Shown: positions 2,310 to 15,094 of the stretch, piece by piece
Layout: the number at the start of each line of letters is the position of its first letter
Numbering within the stretch: the stretch's first letter is position 1
Assembly: GCA_002338255.1 (NCBI GenBank)
Contig: DDHX01000060.1
Coordinates: 58,041-73,134 of the forward strand
Origin: Ruminococcaceae bacterium UBA1865
GTDB lineage: Bacteria; Bacillota; Clostridia; Oscillospirales; Acutalibacteraceae
Length of the DNA stretch: 15,094 nt
Direction: 5' to 3'
Translations under genes and position numbers: made by a program
Notes under the pieces: model-generated
What the model saw: only the letters and a program-made list of their open reading frames with translations
What the model was told of the DNA's origin: nothing
The model's database searches: none

Positions 2310-2424
2310 GGCAATAGTCAGTGATTTCTTCCTGTGCCGACGACCAATAATTGTCACACTATTATTACATAAACCAATCATAACACGATTGAGTCAAACA
2401 TAAAATAAAAATTTTTAGATGTAC

Positions 2425-2461
2425 AAAAAATCCCTTTACCCAAAATGGATAAAGGGATTTT
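2425..2461 (-). terminator. Intrinsic terminator of the PHP-phosphoesterase gene
   Basis: On the minus strand, a 12-bp-plus stem (AAAATCCCTTTA 2427-2438 with TAAAGGGATTTT 2450-2461, extended by CC/GG around one bulge) is followed by a U tract (the A run at 2425-2430). It lies 29 bp beyond the stop codon of the PHP gene. It separates that gene from the flavodoxin gene. Confidence 0.85.
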
Positions 2462-2489
2462 AAATTGCGGCAGTACGATAAAACGATTT

Positions 2490-5400
2490 TTATTTCAAAA
2501 TAGTTGCTATCGCTACCGGTGCTTTTTGAGAATTAAGATAAAATCCGCAACCTGCGCCTGCTTTACCAACCGCCGTTACCTTAAAGAAATAATCTCTGCC
2601 GACAGATTTTACGAATTTAACTCTGAATACCGATGCTGTACCGGCAACAAAGGTTGGCATTGATTCCGCTGTAATTTTAAAGGTATAATCCGCGTCTGCT
2701 TTAACATTAAACGGAAGGGTTGTGTCGCTCTTTGCGTTAGGAGCAGCAGAACCGACTGTTGCGACCAAAAGCTTCACACCGTTCACATAGATACCGGCCT
2801 GTGTGCCGAGCGCACCGATTCCAATTATCTTAAAGTAGTAATCATTGTCAGATGTTCTGACAAGCTCTATGCTGAACACGCCAGCCGTTCCCACTACCAA
2901 TGTCGGTACATGACCGTTCACGCCTGTGATTTTAAACTGATAAGCACCCTTAACATTAAAATCAGCTGTTGTATCACTGATAAATGTTGCAGGTGGTGTG
3001 GAGAAATCAAGATTCGAAGATGGTTTGGACGGAGTATTCACTGCTTTTATTTCCGCGCGGTCACGAACCCGAATGCGAGGGCCATCCGTGTCATAAGAGA
3101 CCAGACCAATTGCGCTGATTGTTTTTCCTACCTGCGCAATGGTTTCTAACGGTGTGCTGAGTTGCGTAGAACTACCGATATAGCCATCGATGAAGACTCT
3201 TAGTTCTGCACCGCTGCTATCCTTAAGCAGTACATACGACAAAACATTATTTTCAAGAACAGCATTTGTGATTTGGCCTTGAACTTGAATTAGCCTGCCG
3301 CCATTGGCTGCGTAATCAGCGGCTTGCTTTGTTGTTACAGTTGCAGGAGCAATCGGATGAATTTCTGTATCGATGACGTCTGCACTGATTACGCGCAGCT
3401 CCAAATCACCAAGATACTGGTAGAGACTTCCGACAACACGAACCTTTTGCCCGACTTTGATTTCGCCGCTGTTGATCGGGAAAATGTTGATACCACCTGT
3501 TTCATCCTGAATATAAATGGTGTCAAAGAATGCATTTCCGGTTTGCGTACCTGCGGTTACAATTCCCTCCACCGCAAAGGTTTCACCGATTGCTTGTTTG
3601 CGAACATCCCCGATTTTGGTCGTATCAATATTCTTTTTGACAGAATCAAGTATATTGCTTATGATGGTGTAATTGGTATACTGCAGGTCAGCGTAACTGT
3701 CCATCGATACCTTCACTTCAAAGTCCGACATAAAAACCGTTCCGCCGACAAAAACATTTCCTTTGCCGACTTTCTCCTGTGCCAGAGCACAGGCATCACC
3801 TTGTTTCTTGACGGCTTTACTTTCATCATAATCAGCTTTTCCGTCAGAAGCGGGAACGTTACTTTCGTATTTTCCATCTGTCATTTTGGAGTTAATGGAA
3901 TAGGTTGTATTGTATCCTTCAACAAGCTTTGTGGCGTTCTCCCCCGGTGTTACGGTACAGCCGCTGTAAAAACTATATTTCTGCCCGTCTACAACTCCTT
4001 GCAGATACGGGGATTCCTTATTCACATTGGTCATGTACACTCTGAATTTTTGCCCGCCATTCGTTACATCATCAAGAACTTCATCGCTGCTGATGGTAGT
4101 TTTAGCTCCTATTGCCTTCAAGAGGTTGTTGATCTGGGTGCTGGAGGTATAGGGGTCCTCAGCAGCGTCCTGATAATCGGCTAAACCGCAGGTAATAACG
4201 GTGCCGCCGTTTTCAACGTACTCTTTTACCATCGCAATAAAATCATCGCTAAAGGTCATTGGCGTGTAAGAAACGCCGTTGGATGTCGCTGTTTTCTTTG
4301 CAGGGGCTGAAATTATGAGCAGGCTAACTCCGTCAAGCATTTCTTTGGTGATTTGAGTCTTTTCAACTTTCACCTGAATTTGATCTGCGGCGGCGATTGC
4401 AGTAAAATTGTTCATGTTGTTGGCATAATAACCGTTGACATAATCATTATAGTGCGTGCCGTCAATCAATACCTTCGTTACAACTTTCGGGTCGGAAAAG
4501 TTCAGCTTCAGAACATCGGTAAATATTTTTTCTACACCGTCAATTGTTGCTACCAACTTAACATCAACATTGCAAGTGCCGGATTTTGCGCTTGTGTATT
4601 GAAAACTATAGTCTTTCGTAGCGAGGGAGTCCACAGTACCAATATCCAGTACCGTTTTAATGATTGTACCATCAATTGAATATTCCAATGATTTTATATT
4701 CATTGGTACAGACTCATTGTTATATAAATTAGACGTAATCGTCAGTTCTTCGCTCTTGACAGGCAATGCTGTACTGGCAGATGTTTTAGAAATACCGGCT
4801 TTATCGACCTCGCCTACCCACACCGGTGCAGTTACGGCAATATCTTTGTCAGGCTGTGTTACGCGAATATAGTAGTAGGAGTAGTTTGCCGGAAGCTGGA
4901 ACGTAACATCTTCATCGGAGGAAGTAACTGTTTTGGTCGCTGCCACTTTGCCTCCGTTGACAATAACATCTACTTTGCCGATTGCTTCTTTATCCGGATC
5001 GGAAATTTTCACATCAATATTAACATCATCCGGCTTTGAGTCTAAAATTGTGCCCATGATTTCATTGTTCAGTTTATATGTGATTTTTAAATCATTATCT
5101 TCCGACGCATAGATTCGTCTGTTTCTCATCGCATCATACAGATTATCCTCTGTAAGGGAATCCGCTAAAATAACACTGCGGGCTGTGTTGGCATCGCCCC
5201 ATTTGCCTTTATGGTTATCCTGATTATTGGTTGGCGCAACATGCCATCCTTTATCCAATGCGCGTGTATAATATTCATAGGATGGAAAATATCCGGAGCC
5301 GCGCACAGCGCCTTCCCCGTTTCCAACCTCAACCATATTGACTACCTTATCGATTTGCGGACTATAGTTCGCAAAATCATTAAAGTCACCAAAGGTAGTT

Positions 5401-7514: not shown

Positions 7515-9068
7515 CTACACGATTTTGGTTGTCCATTGCTCCAAATCCCAAACATCAGTGACAATATCATAATAAAAATCCGGTTCATGGCTTACGAGCA
7601 GAACGGTTCCTTTAAATTCTGATATTGCTTTTTTAAGTTCCGCCTTTGCATCTACATCAAGGTGATTTGTTGGTTCGTCGAGCACCAGTAAATTGATTTC
7701 GTTTAACATCAGCTTACACAAGCGTACCTTTGCATTTTCTCCGCCTGACAGCACTTTCATTTGCGATGTAATGTGCTCATTTGTCAACCCGCATCGAGCC
7801 AGAGCGGCTCTGACCTCCCCGTTTGTCATTCCGGGGTACTCATTCCATATTTCCTGCAAGGCTGTGTTATCGGAAGCTGCTTCCTCCTGCTCAAAATAGC
7901 CGATTTCAACAAAAGAGTCCAGCTCCGTATCCCCTGAAATTGAGGGGATACGCCCGAGCAAGGTTTTTAGCAGTGTCGACTTGCCTAATCCGTTTACTCC
8001 CTTGATTGCGACCTTTTGATTGCGTTCAAGCAACAAATTGAGCGGTTTTGTTAGAGGCTCCGTATACCCCAAGACCAATTCATTCGCTGTAATGACCTGC
8101 TTGCCCGGGGTTCTGGCTGATTTAAAAGAGAAGGACGGCTTTGGCTTTTCGCGTGTGATCTCAATCATTTCCATATTGTTCAGCTTCTTCTGCCTTGACT
8201 TTGCCATATTGGCAGTGGAAGCTCTTGCCTTATTCTTTGCGATAAAAACCTCAAGATTTGAAATTTCCTTTTGCTGTTTTTCATAAGCTTGCTCTGTTTG
8301 GCGTTTCTTGAGTTCGTACATTTCAGTAAACTGGTGATAATCTCCTGTATAGCGGGTTAATACTGCATTTTCAACATGATAGATAACATTGACAACATCA
8401 TTTAGAAATTCGATATCGTGAGATACTAATATGAATGCGTTGTCGTAGTTCTGCAAAAAGTTCTTCAGCCATGCAATATGGTTCTCGTCCAAAAAGTTTG
8501 TCGGTTCGTCCAAAATTAAAATCATCGGATTTTCCAGCAGCAGCTTTGTTAAAAGGACCTTGGCGCGCTGGCCGCCGGACAGTTCATCAACATCATGGTC
8601 AAGTCCAATTTCACCAAGTCCCAAGCCATTAGCGTATTCTTCAATTTTACTGTCGATGATGTAAAAACCGCTGTAATCCAATATCTCCTGAATCTCACCG
8701 ACGTCCTCCATCAAAGAAGATATTTCCTCATCTGAACAGTCCGACATTTTTTCATAAGCGCCTAACATTTCCTGCTCTAAATCATACAGATGCTGGAAAG
8801 CCTCACGCAAAACGTCACGAATTGTTTTGCCCTTTGTCAACGTGCTGAATTGATCCAAATACCCTGTTGTAATATGTTTGCACCACGAAATTGTGCCCTC
8901 GTCGGGCGTTAGCTTACCGGTGATAATATTTAAAAAGGTTGATTTACCTTCTCCGTTTGCACCAACCAGCCCCACATGTTCCCCTTTTAATAAGCGAAAA
9001 GAGGCATCTTCTAAAATACTTCTCGCACCAAATCCATGTGTGACATTTTCAACGTCTAATATGCTCAT
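7515..9068 (-). CDS. ABC-F family ATPase (ribosome-associated type)
   Basis: A 517-residue soluble protein with two ABC ATPase domains and no membrane segments. Domain 1 has Walker A GANGEGKST (36-44), signature LSGGQ (163-167), Walker B ILILDEPT (183-190) and H217. Domain 2 has GVNGLGKST (357-365), LSGGE (440-444), LVLDEPT (461-467) and H494. A charged helical linker (about 250-320) corresponds to the P-site-tRNA interaction region of ABC-F proteins. These proteins bind the ribosomal E site. They either rescue stalled translation or protect against ribosome-targeting antibiotics, and the sequence alone does not say which. The ATG at 9068 has GGAGG 4 nt upstream. A reading 22 codons longer includes the promoter and is not credible. 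The 5' leader is only about 27 nt, leaving no room for the attenuators often found before resistance-type ABC-F genes. Confidence 0.92.
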   Translation of the reverse strand: MSILDVENVTHGFGARSILEDASFRLLKGEHVGLVGANGEGKSTFLNIITGKLTPDEGTISWCKHITTGYLDQFSTLTKGKTIRDVLREAFQHLYDLEQEMLGAYEKMSDCSDEEISSLMEDVGEIQEILDYSGFYIIDSKIEEYANGLGLGEIGLDHDVDELSGGQRAKVLLTKLLLENPMILILDEPTNFLDENHIAWLKNFLQNYDNAFILVSHDIEFLNDVVNVIYHVENAVLTRYTGDYHQFTEMYELKKRQTEQAYEKQQKEISNLEVFIAKNKARASTANMAKSRQKKLNNMEMIEITREKPKPSFSFKSARTPGKQVITANELVLGYTEPLTKPLNLLLERNQKVAIKGVNGLGKSTLLKTLLGRIPSISGDTELDSFVEIGYFEQEEAASDNTALQEIWNEYPGMTNGEVRAALARCGLTNEHITSQMKVLSGGENAKVRLCKLMLNEINLLVLDEPTNHLDVDAKAELKKAISEFKGTVLLVSHEPDFYYDIVTDVWDLEQWTTKIV

Positions 9069-9101
9069 AAGTCCTCCAATAAAGTAAGTTAAATACACAT
9101 T

Positions 9102-9130
9102 ATTATACCATGCAACAAAACCATCCACAA
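9102..9130 (-). promoter_or_regulatory. Promoter of the ABC-F gene
   Basis: On the minus strand, TTGTGG (9125-9130) and TATAAT (9102-9107) have 17-bp spacing and an extended -10 TG (TGGTATAAT). Transcription would begin near 9095, giving a short leader. The adjacent stretch 9131-9272, up to the riboswitch promoter, shows nothing I can name. Confidence 0.65.
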
Positions 9131-9272
9131 CCATTTGTCGATGTGATGCGGTTTGTGGGGATATGAATGTAAACTAAGAGTCCTTACAGTTACAAAATCC
9201 CCTGCATTTATGTAAATTTCTTCTATCTTCATCTGCTTATTATTTTAACCGTTATAGAAATAAAATTGGCAC

Positions 9273-9301: not shown

Positions 9302-9340
9302 TTGAATTATCTCTTTGCACTGCATATCAATCTACAGTAC

Positions 9341-9429
9341 AAACTGAGCAGGCGATGAACCGATAAGGTTCGTGGGGCTGGGCTGGCAACAGCAACAGAT
9401 GGAATGATTTCACATCTGTGGGACAGTAG
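9341..9429 (+). ncRNA. czcD/NiCo-type metal riboswitch
   Basis: The sequence reproduces the czcD (NiCo) riboswitch architecture. P1 is ACTG (9343-9346) with CAGT (9424-9427). The conserved GAGCAGGC strand follows. P2 is a hairpin (GAACC-GATAA-GGTTC). P3 has GCTG-GCAA-CAGC with a tetraloop. P4 is ACAGATG...CATCTGT (9395-9417), and GGGACAG closes the core. The landmarks CTGAGCAGGC, GGGCTG, CAACAGATG and CATCTGTGGGACAG match my recollection of the structurally characterised Erysipelotrichaceae NiCo RNA. Known members bind Ni2+ and Co2+ cooperatively, and later work reported response to Fe2+. They normally raise expression of metal exporters by preventing terminator formation. Here it precedes a P-type ATPase. 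Confidence 0.9.
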
Positions 9430-9468: not shown

Positions 9469-9561
9469 GCATAAACTGGGTTAGTCAATGTGAGCTTGAC
9501 TTTATGAAGTGCCATAGAGCTATCTTATGAAACGCTGAAAAGCGAAATGGAGGTAACTTGT

Positions 9562-12099
9562 ATGACAGACCAAAAAAATGCGCACACCATGCAGGGCTTA
9601 ACGACAGAGGAAGCCAAAAAACTTCAGGAGCAGTTCGGGAAAAACGAGCTAACAGCACAAAAAAAGCAGAGTTTTTTTGTGAAGGCGCTCCACATTATCG
9701 GCGAGCCGATGTTTCTCCTTTTAATCGTTGCGGCAATCATCTACTTTATTTTAGGTGAACCGCGCGACGGTGCGATTATGTTGATATTTGTACTTGGTGT
9801 AATCAGCATCGACATTGTGCAGGAATGGAAAACCGATAAAACGTTAAATGCACTGAAAGACCTTTCCGCACCGCGTGCTGCGGTTATCCGCGACGGGAAA
9901 GAGCAGACGATTGACAGCTGCGATTTAGTTCCCGGTGATTTGATGATGATTGCCGAAGGCGTTAAAGTTCCCGCTGACGGTAAAGTGATGAAGGCGAGCG
10001 ACCTTTGTGTTGATGAATCTTCCCTGACAGGGGAGGCGGAGGGCGTTTGGAAAGTAACGGTTGACAACGCCGAGCCAAACTCCGACTATTGGCGCAAAGA
10101 TTACTGCTATGCAGGCACGCTCGTAACGCAGGGCAGCGCTATTATTCGTGTAGACAAAATCGGGTCTGCTACGGAATATGGCAAGATAGGCGCTCATGTG
10201 GCGTCCGCCCCGGAGACCCCGACCCCCTTGCAAAAGCAAACGGGCAGTCTTGTAAAACTATGCTCCGGGATTGCCGCCGTACTCTTCGCGCTGGTTGGCG
10301 TGATTACGTATTTTAATCTTCCGAATCATGCGTTTGGCGACAGAGTAGTCGAAAGTATCTTGTCCGGCATCACTCTTGCGATGGCGATGATACCGGAGGA
10401 ATTTCCGGTTATTCTTACCGTGTTCCTGTCAATGGGCGCATGGAGGCTTGCGAAAAAGCAATCGCTTGTCCGCAAACTGCCTTCTGTGGAAACGTTAGGC
10501 GCGGTTTCCGTCCTTTGCGTTGATAAAACAGGCACGATCACAATGAATCAAATGACTGTTCAAGACACCTGGGCGCTCAATGGCGACACAAACGATTTGG
10601 CCGAACTAATGGGGCTTGCCTGTGAAACTGATGCGTACGACCCGATGGAGCAGGCAATGATTGCCTATTGCGAAACGTTGGGGATTGGTAAAGAGCATTT
10701 GTTTGGCGGTGAACTGATTACCGAATATGCTTTCACCAATGAACTGAAAATGATGGGTCACGTTTGGCGGCATGACGGTGAAATCCTCATCGCGGCCAAA
10801 GGCTCGCCGGAACGGATTCTGACCATCTGCAAACTTTCTGATTCTGAACGCAGGCTGGCAGAGGATAAAATTGCAGAAATGTCAAAACAGGGCCTGCGTG
10901 TGATTGCCGTAGGCGTGATGAAGCCACACAGCGAGGCTGAAATTCCTGCAGCAATTACAGATTGCACACTCAGCCTTTGCGGCCTGATCGGCCTTGCCGA
11001 CCCGCCGAGGGAATCGGTCAAAGCGGACATTCGGCATTGCGTCAACGCAGGGGTTCGCGTTGTTATGATTACAGGTGATAACGGAATAACTGCCAGCTCA
11101 ATCGCAAAACAGATTGGTATGCCAAACAGCGACCAGATTATTACCGGTGATGAGCTGAACAATATGAGTGACGAAGAGCTTCGTGAACGGATTCGCGGTG
11201 TAAGCATTTTCTCCCGTGTTGTGCCGGAGCACAAAATGCGTATTGTAAAAGCCTTTAAGGATAACGGCGAGATCGTTGCAATGACAGGCGACGGCGTAAA
11301 TGATGCGCCTGCCCTCAAATATGCCGACATCGGTATTGCCATGGGGAAGCGCGGCTCCGAAGTATCAAGAGAAGCCGCGGATTTAATTTTGATGGATGAC
11401 AATTTCTCTACAATTGTCGATACCATCAAGGATGGCAGAAGAATTTATGACAATATCCGAAAAGCGGTCGGTTATGTATTTACGATTCACATTCCGATTG
11501 CATTTTCCGCACTGCTTGCGCCGTCTCTGAATATAAATCCTGCGAGCCTGCTCTTACTGCCGCTACATGTGGTACTTTTAGAGTTGATTATTGACCCCAC
11601 CTGTTCTGTGGTGCTGGAGCGCCAGCCTGCCGAACGAAATATTATGGAGCGTAAGCCCCGTAATCCAAACGAAAAGATTTTAACCCCGGGAATACTTTTT
11701 AAAAGCATTCTTCAGGGATTGGCGGTATTTTCCGCATCCTTTGGAACTTACTTTACATTTTTGCAGCAAAACCCCGCCAACGCTGCCCTCGCAAGAACCA
11801 TGGGTCTTGCGGTTATTATGCTTGCCAATTTGTTTCTGGTACAGGTCAACAGCTCAAACTATGATTTCGCTATTCAGTCAATCACCCGTCTTGCCAAAGA
11901 CAAGGTGATGTGGGCAGTCAATATCGGCACTATTGCAGGGCTCCTACTCATTCTTTACACTCCGCTTTGCGGCTTTTTAAAGCTTGCGCCATTGTCCGCC
12001 GGTCAGTTCTTTCTTGCTGTCAGAATTGCGGCTGTGTCTGTGCTGTGGTATGAAATTGTAAAGCTAATCCATTTTATCCGACACAAAATTGTTAGATAA
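9562..12099 (+). CDS. P-type cation-transporting ATPase under metal-riboswitch control
   Basis: An 845-residue P-type ATPase of P2-like layout. It has an N-terminal cation-ATPase domain, M1-M2, an actuator with TGEA (156-159), M3-M4 with PEEFP (278-282), DKTGT with the phosphorylated Asp (321-325), KGSPE (413-417), TGDN (504-507), TGDGVNDAP (575-583) and M5-M10. There is no CPC motif and no heavy-metal-binding domain, so it is not a P1B pump. Ca2+ pumps of this class have PEGLP in M4; here a second acidic residue replaces Gly. M6 carries ELIID (674-678) followed by Cys681. This PEEFP group is usually annotated loosely as calcium- or cation-transporting. The NiCo riboswitch upstream points to export of Co2+, Ni2+ or Fe2+ from the cytoplasm, which is inference. 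The ATG at 9562 has GGAGG 8 nt upstream. An ATG 15 bp earlier overlaps that site. Confidence 0.9.
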   Translation: MTDQKNAHTMQGLTTEEAKKLQEQFGKNELTAQKKQSFFVKALHIIGEPMFLLLIVAAIIYFILGEPRDGAIMLIFVLGVISIDIVQEWKTDKTLNALKDLSAPRAAVIRDGKEQTIDSCDLVPGDLMMIAEGVKVPADGKVMKASDLCVDESSLTGEAEGVWKVTVDNAEPNSDYWRKDYCYAGTLVTQGSAIIRVDKIGSATEYGKIGAHVASAPETPTPLQKQTGSLVKLCSGIAAVLFALVGVITYFNLPNHAFGDRVVESILSGITLAMAMIPEEFPVILTVFLSMGAWRLAKKQSLVRKLPSVETLGAVSVLCVDKTGTITMNQMTVQDTWALNGDTNDLAELMGLACETDAYDPMEQAMIAYCETLGIGKEHLFGGELITEYAFTNELKMMGHVWRHDGEILIAAKGSPERILTICKLSDSERRLAEDKIAEMSKQGLRVIAVGVMKPHSEAEIPAAITDCTLSLCGLIGLADPPRESVKADIRHCVNAGVRVVMITGDNGITASSIAKQIGMPNSDQIITGDELNNMSDEELRERIRGVSIFSRVVPEHKMRIVKAFKDNGEIVAMTGDGVNDAPALKYADIGIAMGKRGSEVSREAADLILMDDNFSTIVDTIKDGRRIYDNIRKAVGYVFTIHIPIAFSALLAPSLNINPASLLLLPLHVVLLELIIDPTCSVVLERQPAERNIMERKPRNPNEKILTPGILFKSILQGLAVFSASFGTYFTFLQQNPANAALARTMGLAVIMLANLFLVQVNSSNYDFAIQSITRLAKDKVMWAVNIGTIAGLLLILYTPLCGFLKLAPLSAGQFFLAVRIAAVSVLWYEIVKLIHFIRHKIVR

Positions 12100-12166
12100 A
12101 GCAGCGAATTTTGTATCCAAATTCACTGAATCGATCAATGCTTTGAGCGCGGTGACAATTCAAATA

Positions 12167-12220
12167 AAAACCTGTATGAGACAGCCGTTTATGGCGTGTT
12201 TTATACGGGTTTTATTTTTT
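12167..12220 (+). terminator. Intrinsic terminator of the ATPase gene
   Basis: AAAACCTGTAT (12167-12177) pairs with ATACGGGTTTT (12203-12213) over 11 bp, with an inner GCC/GGC hairpin, followed by ATTTTTT. It lies 68 bp after the stop codon and ends the riboswitch-ATPase transcript. The stretch 12100-12166 holds nothing else I can see. Confidence 0.8.
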
Positions 12221-12229
12221 GTAATTAGC

Positions 12230-12259
12230 TTGACAAATTTATATCAAATATGATACGAT
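12230..12259 (+). promoter_or_regulatory. Promoter of the hydrogenase-maturation operon
   Basis: TTGACA (12230-12235) and TACGAT (12254-12259) are separated by 18 bp, with TG just ahead of the -10 (TGATACGAT). The spacer contains the inverted repeat TATCA-AATA-TGATA (12242-12255), a possible operator. Predicted start is near 12266. Confidence 0.6.
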
Positions 12260-12265
12260 TTGGCT

Positions 12266-12427
12266 ATACAAACCGTAAGAATAAGGCTGCTAAAACCTGT
12301 TTTTATGGCAGACTAAACGCAATAAAAAGTTATCGTGCTGAGTCAGCAAGGGTTCGTCCCGAGCAAGAAGGCGAGAGAATAGTTTGAATGAGCCGTGAGT
12401 CCTATGACTCGTATGGTTTTGTTTGCT
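12266..12427 (+). ncRNA. Structured 5' leader RNA of unknown class before the hydrogenase-maturation operon
   Basis: About 160 nt of non-coding leader lies between the promoter and a strong terminator. Visible helices are CTGC-TAAAA...TTTTA-GCAG (12287-12311), TGCTG-AGT-CAGCA (12336-12348), GGG-TTCGT-CCC (12350-12360) and GAGTC-CTAT-GACTC (12397-12410). CAAGGG (12347-12352) could pair with TCCTTG (12429-12434), the 5' arm of the terminator, giving a candidate antiterminator. The arrangement is that of a riboswitch or other attenuator. It lacks the hallmark sequences of the TPP, SAM-I, cobalamin, FMN, lysine, Moco, NiCo and T-box leaders I compared from memory. The function and ligand are unknown. 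Confidence 0.5.
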
Positions 12428-12465
12428 ATCCTTGTGCCTTTTCGGTACAAGGATTTTTTGTTTTT
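12428..12465 (+). terminator. Strong intrinsic terminator inside the hydrogenase-maturation leader (attenuator)
   Basis: ATCCTTGTGCC (12428-12438) pairs with GGTACAAGGAT (12444-12454) over 11 bp around a TTTTC loop, followed by TTTTT-G-TTTTT. It sits about 200 nt after the promoter and 45 bp before the TM1266-family gene, with no gene ahead of it. It must therefore act as a conditional attenuator rather than as a gene end. Confidence 0.85.
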
Positions 12466-12510
12466 CAGACCAAGGTCAGGACGAAAATGAATGAGAAGGA
12501 AGCAATCAAT

Positions 12511-12756
12511 ATGGAAACAAGAATAGCGCTCATTGGTATTATCGTGGAGGACATGGATTCCGTAGAACAGCTGAACACGATTCTCCATGAGTATTCGCAA
12601 TACATTATCGGAAGAATGGGTATTCCGCATGCGAAACGCGGCATTTCTGTCATCAGCATTGTACTGGACGCTTCCAATGATGTAATCAGCGCGCTTTCCG
12701 GAAAATTAGGGATGCTGCCTCAGATCAATGTCAAAACAATCTATTCAAAGGTTTAG
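12511..12756 (+). CDS. TM1266-family iron-only hydrogenase system putative regulator
   Basis: An 81-residue protein, METRIALIGIIVEDMDSVEQ at its start and ISALSGKLGMLP near its end. This matches the small ferredoxin/ACT-like family named after Thermotoga maritima TM1266, which recurs in [FeFe]-hydrogenase maturation clusters of Firmicutes and Thermotogae and resembles the NikR regulatory domain fold. Its biochemical role is unproven. A regulatory or metal/cofactor-sensing role is suggested by the family name and context. The ATG at 12511 matches the usual family N-terminus and has AAGGA about 10 nt upstream. An in-frame ATG at 12487 with AGGA 5 nt upstream would add eight residues (MNEKEAIN) and is a real alternative. 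The next gene begins 21 bp downstream, so the two are surely co-transcribed. Confidence 0.85.
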   Translation: METRIALIGIIVEDMDSVEQLNTILHEYSQYIIGRMGIPHAKRGISVISIVLDASNDVISALSGKLGMLPQINVKTIYSKV

Positions 12757-12777
12757 AAAATTACAAGGAGGATGCGG

Positions 12778-13821
12778 GTGAAGTATTTAATCGACAAATT
12801 AGAAGTCACGGGTTCACTCACAAAAGAGGAATTCGTATTACTGCTGAATTACACATCCCCGGCTCTTTCGGAATATTTGTTTGAGAAATCCAGAAAAACG
12901 GCCGGCAAATATTTCGAAAATCACGTTTATACGCGCGGGTTAATTGAATTTACCAACTATTGTAAAAATGATTGCCTTTACTGCGGGATACGGGCGGGGA
13001 ACCGAAACGCGGAGCGCTACCGACTGAGCAAGGACGAAATCCTCAGCTGCTGTGCGGACGGATATGCTCTTGGCTTTCGTACTTTCGTTTTACAGGGCGG
13101 AGAAGATTGTGCTTACAGCGACAGCGATATAGCGGATATCATTTCAGATATCAAGGAGCATTATCCCGACTGCGCCTTGACTTTATCCATCGGCGAAAAG
13201 GAGGACGAATCCTACAGGCTAATTTACGAAGCGGGCGCCGACCGGTATCTTCTTCGCCACGAAACCGCAAACGCCGCTCATTACGGACTGCTTCATCCCA
13301 AAAGACAGACTTTGGAAAACCGGAAACGATGCCTTTACGCATTAAAGAAAATTGGGTATCAGGTTGGAACGGGCTTTATGGTTGGTTCGCCGTTCCAGAC
13401 TACCGAGTGCCTTGCCGAGGATTTACTGTTTATAAAAGAGCTGTCACCGCAGATGATTGGAATCGGCCCTTTTATCCCGCATCACGATACCCCCTTTGCC
13501 CACCAGGCACAGGGTTCACTGGAACGGACTCTGTTTTTAATCGGGATATTGCGTCTGCTCATTCCAAACGCATTGATTCCTGCCACCACCGCGCTGGGCA
13601 CGATTGACCCTATGGGTCGTGAAAAGGGAATTCTGGCCGGTGCGAATGTGGTCATGCCAAATCTTTCCCCCGTAAAAGTCCGCAAAAAATACGAACTGTA
13701 TGACAATAAAATCTGCACCGGTGAAGAAGCCGCCGAATGCAGATCCTGCCTGCAAAACCGTATGAAAAGCATCGGCTACAAGCTTGTTGTGGACAGAGGG
13801 GATTTTCAGCCAATAAATTGA
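12778..13821 (+). CDS. hydE: [FeFe]-hydrogenase maturase HydE (radical SAM)
   Basis: A 347-residue radical SAM enzyme. The SAM-cluster motif CX3CX2C is in FTNYCKNDCLYCGIR (C62, C66, C69), and LQGGEDC (about 105-111) follows as in the BioB/ThiH-like HydE group. Three further cysteines, C313, C321 and C324, correspond to the second [Fe-S] site present in some HydE proteins. Together with HydG and HydF, HydE builds the dithiolate-bridged di-iron cofactor of [FeFe]-hydrogenase in the cytoplasm, acting on the Fe(CO)2(CN)-cysteine synthon made by HydG. The start is GTG at 12778, because AAGGAGG lies 6 nt upstream. The ATG at 12772 is directly adjacent to that site, with zero spacing, and cannot be used efficiently. 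The gene is followed 21 bp later by hydG. Confidence 0.93.
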   Translation: MKYLIDKLEVTGSLTKEEFVLLLNYTSPALSEYLFEKSRKTAGKYFENHVYTRGLIEFTNYCKNDCLYCGIRAGNRNAERYRLSKDEILSCCADGYALGFRTFVLQGGEDCAYSDSDIADIISDIKEHYPDCALTLSIGEKEDESYRLIYEAGADRYLLRHETANAAHYGLLHPKRQTLENRKRCLYALKKIGYQVGTGFMVGSPFQTTECLAEDLLFIKELSPQMIGIGPFIPHHDTPFAHQAQGSLERTLFLIGILRLLIPNALIPATTALGTIDPMGREKGILAGANVVMPNLSPVKVRKKYELYDNKICTGEEAAECRSCLQNRMKSIGYKLVVDRGDFQPIN

Positions 13822-13842
13822 AAAAAGAAAGGATCAAATACT

Positions 13843-15094
13843 ATGTATGATATGAAATCAAAAAACGCTGAGGATTTTATCAACGACGAAGAGATACTTG
13901 ATTCGCTAAAGTTTGCAAATAAAAACAAGAATAACCGTGTGCTAATTGATGAAATCATTGAGAAAGCAAAACACATGAAGGGCATTTCTCATCGGGAGGC
14001 CGCCGTCCTTCTGGAATGTGACCTTGAAGATGAAAACGAGAAAATTCATCAGCTTGCCATGGAGATAAAGCAAAGATTTTACGGAAATCGCATTGTGATG
14101 TTCGCACCGCTTTATCTTTCCAATTATTGCGTAAACGGCTGCGTCTATTGCCCCTATCATTATCAAAACACCCATATCTGCCGCAAAAAGCTGACGCAGG
14201 ACGAAATAAAAAATGAAGTCATCGCGCTGCAGGACATGGGTCACAAGCGTTTAGCCCTTGAAACAGGAGAAGACCCTGTGAACAATCCCATTGAGTACAT
14301 TCTGGAAAGTATTCAAACGATTTACTCCATCAAGCATAAAAACGGCGCTATCCGCCGGGTGAATGTCAATATTGCCGCAACGACTGTCGAAAATTACCGC
14401 AAGCTAAAAGAAGCGGGTATCGGCACATACATTCTGTTTCAGGAAACGTATCATAAAAAGAATTACGAAGAGCTGCATCCGGTCGGCCCCAAGCACAATT
14501 ACGCCTATCATACCGAGGCCATGGATCGCGCGATGGAGGGCGGAATAGACGACGTAGGCGTCGGCGTGCTGTTCGGCCTGAATATGTACCGCTATGACTT
14601 TGTCGGCCTTTTGATGCACGCAGAGCATTTGGAAGCGGCAATGGGTGTAGGCCCCCATACAATCAGTGTCCCCCGTATCCGCCCGGCCGAAGACATTGAT
14701 CCAAATACGTTTTCCAATGCCATTTCCGACGATATATTTGCCAAAATTGTCGCCGTTCTTCGCATTACGGTTCCTTATACCGGAATGATTATTTCTACCC
14801 GTGAATCCAAAGCAACAAGAGAAGCCGTTTTGCGGCTTGGCATTACACAAATCAGCGGCGGTTCCCGAACCAGCGTCGGCGGATATGTTGAACCGGAGCC
14901 GGAGGAGGAAAATTCCGCCCAGTTCGATGTTGCCGATACACGCACGCTCGACCAGGTGGTCAACTGGCTTTTGGAATTGGGATATATTCCAAGCTTCTGC
15001 ACCGCGTGTTATCGTGAGGGCAGAACAGGCGACCGTTTTATGGGCCTCGTAAAATCCGGTCAGATTGTAAACTGCTGCCAGCCAAACGCTCTGC
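13843..15094 (+). CDS. hydG: [FeFe]-hydrogenase maturase HydG (radical SAM tyrosine lyase), partial at right edge
   Basis: Open to the window end, 417 codons visible of roughly 470 usual. The radical SAM motif CX3CX2C is in LSNYCVNGCVYCPYH (C96, C100, C103). The HydG-specific C-terminal cluster motif CX2CX22C is present as C386, C389 and C412, the site of the auxiliary cluster that carries the labile iron. HydG cleaves tyrosine to p-cresol and dehydroglycine and converts the latter to CO and cyanide, which are loaded on iron to give the synthon used by HydE and HydF. Landmarks LETGEDP, GVGVLFGL and ISGGSRTSVGGY are typical. The ATG at 13843 has AAAGGA 9 nt upstream. An in-frame ATG at 13852 is less well placed. 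hydF is expected further downstream. Confidence 0.95.
   Translation, partial: MYDMKSKNAEDFINDEEILDSLKFANKNKNNRVLIDEIIEKAKHMKGISHREAAVLLECDLEDENEKIHQLAMEIKQRFYGNRIVMFAPLYLSNYCVNGCVYCPYHYQNTHICRKKLTQDEIKNEVIALQDMGHKRLALETGEDPVNNPIEYILESIQTIYSIKHKNGAIRRVNVNIAATTVENYRKLKEAGIGTYILFQETYHKKNYEELHPVGPKHNYAYHTEAMDRAMEGGIDDVGVGVLFGLNMYRYDFVGLLMHAEHLEAAMGVGPHTISVPRIRPAEDIDPNTFSNAISDDIFAKIVAVLRITVPYTGMIISTRESKATREAVLRLGITQISGGSRTSVGGYVEPEPEEENSAQFDVADTRTLDQVVNWLLELGYIPSFCTACYREGRTGDRFMGLVKSGQIVNCCQPNAL

Follow-up and report, generated by a model that had tools for sequence, protein, structure and literature searches.

What decides whether transcription passes the terminator ahead of the [FeFe]-hydrogenase maturation genes in Ruminococcaceae bacterium UBA1865? 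The window analysed here, a stretch of 15,094 nucleotides (nt) from this genome (contig DDHX01000060.1, positions 58,041 to 73,134), ends with TM1266, hydE and hydG behind a leader that a first-pass annotation had described as an unclassified attenuator RNA. We propose that this leader belongs to a new RNA family and works as a transcription attenuator, and that TM1266 is its autogenous repressor, a reading that, on comparative sequence evidence, we hold with a probability of about one half. The features on which it turns are the following.

12331–12374, forward strand: conserved core of 44 nt, its structure (P1, P2 and two internal loops) read from the alignment.
12370–12383, forward strand: 5' arm of the antiterminator, GGCGAGAGAAUAGU, partly shared with P1.
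12425–12438, forward strand: 3' arm of the antiterminator, GCUAUCCUUGUGCC, shared with the terminator 5' arm.
12428–12460, forward strand: intrinsic terminator, AUCCUUGUGCC-UUUUC-GGUACAAGGAU plus T tract (11 pairs within 12428–12454, then TTTTTG).
12511–12756, forward strand: TM1266 (PF21699, TIGR03959), the proposed reader of the RNA, with a fold like the NikR C-terminal domain.
12772–13821, forward strand: hydE (TIGR03956).
13843–15093, forward strand: hydG (TIGR03955), cut by the window end.

The covariance models of Rfam 15 (cmscan) gave no match at the gathering score in the leader, the best sub-threshold hit being the L10 leader (19.6 versus 44 bits), and none in 20 related loci; T-box models were unmatched in the leader, and the NiCo riboswitch at 9334–9428 was the one match in the window. 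The first-pass view of an unclassified RNA with no T-box signature was thus upheld. To find relatives, one genome from each of 84,980 species was scanned for HydE, and the best 80 of 589 loci were retained. A blastn search with the leader found copies in 13 of these 80 hydE loci (E ≤ 0.001). The window and 11 of the 13 were aligned with MAFFT (alignment A1, 12 sequences), and the structure read from it by eye comprises P1, P2 with GGG:CCC and a UUCGU loop, an AUAGU:ACUAU stem, and the terminator. Pairing holds in 93.2% of the A1 cells. Of the 26 pairs, 11 have changed on both sides, a count reached by none of 500 shuffles; pair types alone were matched by 42 of the 500. Structures slid by one to three columns left just 40–49% paired. 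Alignment A3, with whole-genome matches added and fitted to the model (74 rows, of which the one from window positions 2424–2542 is false), gave 91.4% paired and 369 doubly changed cells versus 94 in shuffles, the P2 pair occurring as CG, UA, AU and GC. Collecting leaders of TM1266 and hydE across Clostridia, as had been suggested, therefore revealed a core that is both conserved and covarying.

In the window core, UCGU-n-CU (12333–12339) pairs with AGGCGA (12369–12374) as P1, followed by the GC:GC pairs of P2 (12346–12347 with 12363–12364) and GGG:CCC (12350–12352 with 12358–12360) closing the UUCGU loop; its internal loops are CUGA/GAAG and AA/GA. The consensus runs UCGUnCUGA, P2, AAGGG or AAAGG, loop, CCCGA or CCUGA, P2', GAAGGCG, with a pair of similar internal loops in succession, CUGA versus GAAAGG and then AAGG versus CCYGA. 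A strict pattern of this core matched at least once in 11 of 40 regions upstream of TM1266, versus 10 matches in 800 shuffled regions. Three regions (L202, L207 and L228) carry a second core-like copy upstream of the model match with a single terminator. L194 perhaps also has two cores (by eye), and L102 has a further core-like copy on the reverse strand (2996–3036, 24.1 bits, model positions 5–46), about 1.4 kb upstream of its main match.

Covariance model R1 (E ≤ 0.01) matched 36 of the 80 hydE loci, all 36 on the hydE strand. Apart from those in L006 and L023, they lie no more than about 700 bases upstream of TM1266 or hydE; one of the 36, L036, has no clear core. The model also matched 15 of 18 genomes of chosen loci, 21 of 200 genomes in one family (at least two, G052 and G065, by false matches alone) and 13 of 33 in one order, where one of two G233 matches is false. 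Such false matches lend something to the view that the leader is a chance hairpin with an ordinary terminator and no regulation: by eye, the T-box-like weak matches L113, L116 and L120 are other leaders, L121 and L128 are terminators or other leaders only, and L182 is a PyrR-like leader, not the core. Against this stand the covariation and the uniform strand of the 36 locus matches, and we regard chance as very improbable. The leader (12266–12480) folds at −64 kcal/mol (z −3.24), equalled by one of 200 shuffles, and terminator-like sites in 11500–15094 number 11 versus 4.6 in shuffles; it is the recurrence of core and terminator in related leaders, with covariation, that places it beyond chance. 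Further rejected matches were one at window positions 2424–2542 on the reverse strand (a gene-end terminator, by eye) and L175, L176, L178 and L179 (not the core), near-identical leaders from four genomes. The weak match in these four precedes a uppS-like, cdsA-like, dxr-like operon (names by eye) and is perhaps another leader.

The GGCG of the core's AAGGCG strand has two partners, P1 and the terminator 5' arm. Because that arm is complementary to the AAGGCG strand, two alternative folds are possible, and terminator and antiterminator appear mutually exclusive, as in a transcription attenuator, judged from complementarity and comparison. On the A1 rows the antiterminator structure is 90.7% paired. 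For an arm-swap test, a script located both arms in 91 of 113 leaders; partial alignments (L055, L022, L102:2996–3036), variant cores (L105, L166), repeats (L189–L191, of L107, L115 and L123) and false matches had been dropped beforehand. The mean arm duplex was −10.0 kcal/mol for own arms, −8.3 for swapped arms and −6.1 for shuffled 5' arms (own versus swapped z −7.9, 2,000 permutations), and the own duplex beat its swapped mean in 69 of 91. Because core and terminator recur, the helices covary and AAGGCG pairs better within its own leader, we regard the element as a conserved conditional terminator: the folded leader RNA can probably stop its own transcription. This is consistent with the conditional attenuator that the first-pass annotation had envisaged.

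We then asked which genomes carry the element. Model R2, built from A3 with core pairs only, was run on a fixed sample of 391 Clostridia genomes, of which 237 have TM1266 and 238 HydG (E ≤ 1e-100). At E ≤ 0.01, R2 matched 66 genomes (a few falsely), 64 of them with TM1266. At E ≤ 0.001, with 11 genomes left out, the PyrR-like G528 among them, 55 RNA-bearing genomes remain: all 55 have TM1266 and 41 have HydG, and at this threshold none of the 154 sampled genomes lacking TM1266 has the RNA. Among genomes with HydG, the RNA occurs in 41 of 189 with TM1266 and in 0 of 49 without; among those where HydG was not found, in 14 of 48 and 0 of 105, respectively. Since the RNA accompanies TM1266 even in the absence of HydG and was not found (E ≤ 0.001) in genomes lacking TM1266, TM1266 is favoured over HydG chemistry as its partner.

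These observations suggest the following scheme. With the core folded and P1 formed, AAGGCG would be masked, the terminator would form and the operon would be off; with the core open, AAGGCG...AUAGU would pair with the terminator 5' arm and transcription would continue. The unpaired letters that are conserved form part of the core fold, so binding would most likely stabilise the core and turn the genes off. Co-occurrence and gene order point to TM1266, which frequently heads the operon, as a protein that may read the RNA, repress its own regulon and carry its own signal. A small protein encoded at the start of an operon, next to a terminator under hairpin control, is reminiscent of PyrR and LicT. 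The family entries in Pfam and NCBIfam name TM1266 merely a putative regulator; it resembles the NikR C-terminal domain and has no DNA-binding domain.

The main rival, which fits almost as well, is a riboswitch whose core would itself be the binding site of an ion or small molecule (iron, a transporter substrate or a metabolite related to the H-cluster), TM1266 being merely co-regulated. The strong conservation of letters outside standard pairs beside a variable platform speaks for it, as do the second core copies in three regions and an ATP-binding cassette (ABC) transporter under the same control, a common riboswitch target. The core, just one hairpin of 44 nt interrupted by two internal loops, is in our judgement closer to a protein site than most aptamers are, and the strict co-occurrence with TM1266 also argues against it; we consider direct binding a serious but less probable explanation.

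Several observations weigh against repression by TM1266 through alternative pairing. The window protein is not basic (8 Asp/Glu versus 7 Lys/Arg by count), which is unusual in an RNA-binding protein. The lower arm of the antiterminator (7 pairs, 92.9% paired) varies one-sidedly, with no doubly changed pair in A1; in 22 of 91 leaders the own duplex is no better than the swapped mean, and 22 of 113 leaders went unparsed, some terminators being mis-parsed (L031). In the window, the best terminator fold reaches −44.1 kcal/mol and the best antiterminator fold −44.4 kcal/mol, and P1 plus terminator gives −39.3 kcal/mol, about 5 above the best terminator fold. In both the free fold and the terminator fold, the T tract pairs with the core strand, an arrangement that is not open to a nascent terminator; given these energies and this use of the T tract, the balance between the two states exists only on paper. 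Two genomes without TM1266 (G251 and G495) have weak RNA matches (E 0.005 and 0.0056). The co-occurrence tests overstate independence because the sampled genomes are related, and at least 13 of the 55 RNA-bearing genomes contributed model rows. Finally, 173 of the 237 genomes with TM1266 have no RNA match at E ≤ 0.01, and several TM1266 upstream regions lack the core and carry a GTTAA..TTAAC box instead (by eye); these were seen among the regions remaining after 14 of 40 from R2-negative genomes had scored E ≤ 0.01 when searched alone, R2 missing diverged copies.

Another possibility is that a protein other than TM1266, or a ribosome on a leader peptide, controls the terminator. This touches the stretch between the two antiterminator arms:

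12390–12418, forward strand: variable hairpin, absent from short relatives such as L003.

In its favour, the reading frame of an ATG at 12388 in the window crosses the terminator in phase with TM1266. The stretch holding this ATG is variable and is missing from short relatives such as L003, and the conserved part is the RNA core; we think such control unlikely.

Genes downstream of the RNA are TM1266, hydE, hydG and hydF and, in 19 genomes, one for the substrate-binding protein of an ABC transporter that we take to be NitT/TauT-like (its Pfam match is NMT1-like and others). Permease or ATPase genes are also present in 16 of the 19; in G219, G221 and G578 the binding-protein gene alone was examined. 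HydG was not found in 14 of the 19 (G005, G167, G220, G223, G224, G225, G226, G233, G238, G258, G260, G325, G398 and G602) and is present in five (G051, G218, G219, G221 and G578). G005 (Sedimentibacter acidaminivorans, L244) has the order RNA, permease, ATPase, binding protein, hydE, hydF. In G167 (L245), G005 (L244) and G398 (L242/L243), genomes where HydG was not found, the RNA-controlled transporter adjoins a HydA-like gene or shares an operon with hydE and hydF; G005 and G398 keep HydE and HydF, and on the 3.5-Mb contig of G167 the HydG model is unmatched even at 1e-10, a level at which HydE usually shows. Twelve genomes have the RNA, TM1266 and HydA (G220, G223, G224, G225, G226, G227, G233, G238, G258, G260, G278 and G602; loci L232–L236, L238–L241, L248–L256 and L258–L260). 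In these, none of HydE, HydF and HydG scored above the cut-off, many assemblies being fragmented and of untold completeness. Their RNA mostly lies ahead of TM1266 and the ABC transporter, a transporter gene being under the RNA in 10, and nine have the three H-cluster motifs in their HydA regions; in G258 the pattern used missed one of them, G227 is truncated and G233 has none in the fetched stretch.

The presence of the RNA in genomes without HydG, twelve of them also without HydE and HydF matches, disfavours signals tied to HydE or HydG. S-adenosylmethionine and tyrosine, both put forward earlier as possible signals, thus lose ground, the RNA tracking TM1266 and occurring where HydG is not found. 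Relatives of the binding protein at 1e-30 occur in 98 of the 391 genomes, 50 without and 48 with HydG (odds ratio 1.9, p 0.006); at 1e-115 there are 15 without and 11 with HydG (p 0.06). Of the 98 genomes, 40 lack TM1266. On these figures the link between transporter and HydG is loose. It is conceivable, if improbable, that TM1266 senses H-cluster supply and binds RNA, that through it the attenuator controls either the maturases or a precursor-importing ABC transporter, and that some clostridia mature hydrogenase without making the cofactor. By eye, a cysteine is common to the substrate-binding proteins of L232–L240, L245 and L247, where it lies within P(Y/N)C(N/S)I; that of L241 lacks it. A variant core precedes hydE and then a nifH-like gene in G135 (L105) and G461 (L246); L166 is also among the variant-core loci, and G461 (L246) additionally has nifD-like, ABC-transporter-like, hydF and TM1266 genes.

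Upstream of the core, the leader begins with the following features.

12230–12259, forward strand: promoter, −35 TTGACA (12230–12235) and −10 TACGAT (12254–12259), spacer 18, TG before the −10, 10 of 12 consensus positions.
12219–12236, no strand assigned: possible Rex-like box, TTGTAATTAGCTTGACAA, overlapping the −35, 11 of 14 positions of the Rex consensus.
12273–12308, forward strand: 5' hairpin outside the conserved core, its sequence not shared with the relatives compared.

Promoter-like matches in 11500–15094 number 6 versus 5.5 in shuffles, so the promoter call rests on position. With terminator, fold and family matches, it bears out the first-pass description of a promoter, a hairpin-rich non-coding leader and an 11-bp terminator before TM1266-hydE-hydG. 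By the same consensus, Rex-like palindromes of at least 12 of 14 positions occur in 27 of 115 leaders (for example L003, L017, L001 and L009) versus 0 of 115 shuffled, suggesting that these leaders are likely also controlled at initiation. Boxes of at least 11 of 14 positions occur in 43 of 115 versus 6 of 115 shuffled; since they arise in shuffles too, the window's own box is weak. L001, L003, L004, L010, L031 and L122 have an additional 5' hairpin upstream of the core with GGU(G/A)nG...(C/G)AACC-like ends and a varying stem (by eye).

No gene lies between the P-type ATPase gene (9547–12099) and TM1266, whose start codon is most likely at 12511 (by eye). A separate hairpin with a T run, at about 12168–12220, serves the ATPase gene (by eye), and the NiCo riboswitch upstream of it is on the forward strand (77.2 bits). 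On the reverse strand, 7515–9134 encodes an ABC-F protein that passes the NCBIfam cut-off for the ribosomal-protection-like type. TM1266 was searched for in viral contigs and the leader in plasmids, in both cases with no match.

What this analysis adds is the core module, the alternative pairing and the link to TM1266. Among the open-licence papers listed on hydrogenase riboswitches or leaders, TM1266 and hydE (PMC9481103, PMC8632094, PMC6429828, PMC8040213 and PMC2864571 among them), no report of the element was found, nor was any in term-mapping literature on hyd leaders. Within the open-licence literature searched, a conserved attenuator family outside Rfam 15 would be the first reported case of RNA control over [FeFe]-hydrogenase maturation, and TM1266 gains a testable function. 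HydA is described as requiring maturases (PMC10711303); the transporter may bear on its maturation where these were not found.

Among known systems, NikR shares its C-terminal fold with TM1266, which lacks the ribbon-helix-helix domain. The PyrR-dependent pyr attenuators (RF00515) likewise place a hairpin site before an antiterminator/terminator pair, with the regulator gene at the operon start; the leader scores 17.7 bits against a gathering score of 54, has another core sequence and precedes a hyd operon with no pyr genes. The ribonucleic antiterminators (RAT) of LicT and SacY are, like the core, short hairpins with two internal loops that overlap a terminator and are read by a dimeric, operon-encoded protein; here, in contrast, the core fold would favour termination. 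Nor was a CAT RNA-binding domain found in TM1266, its own family being the sole match in Pfam and NCBIfam; CAT proteins elsewhere were not sought. The NiCo (RF02683), molybdenum cofactor and tungsten cofactor (Moco/Wco) terminator-platform riboswitches also combine a conserved 5' core with a variable platform, although the leader and the 20 related loci reach no Rfam gathering score. Tandem Wco riboswitches precede genes such as ferredoxin hydrogenase (PMC9481103).
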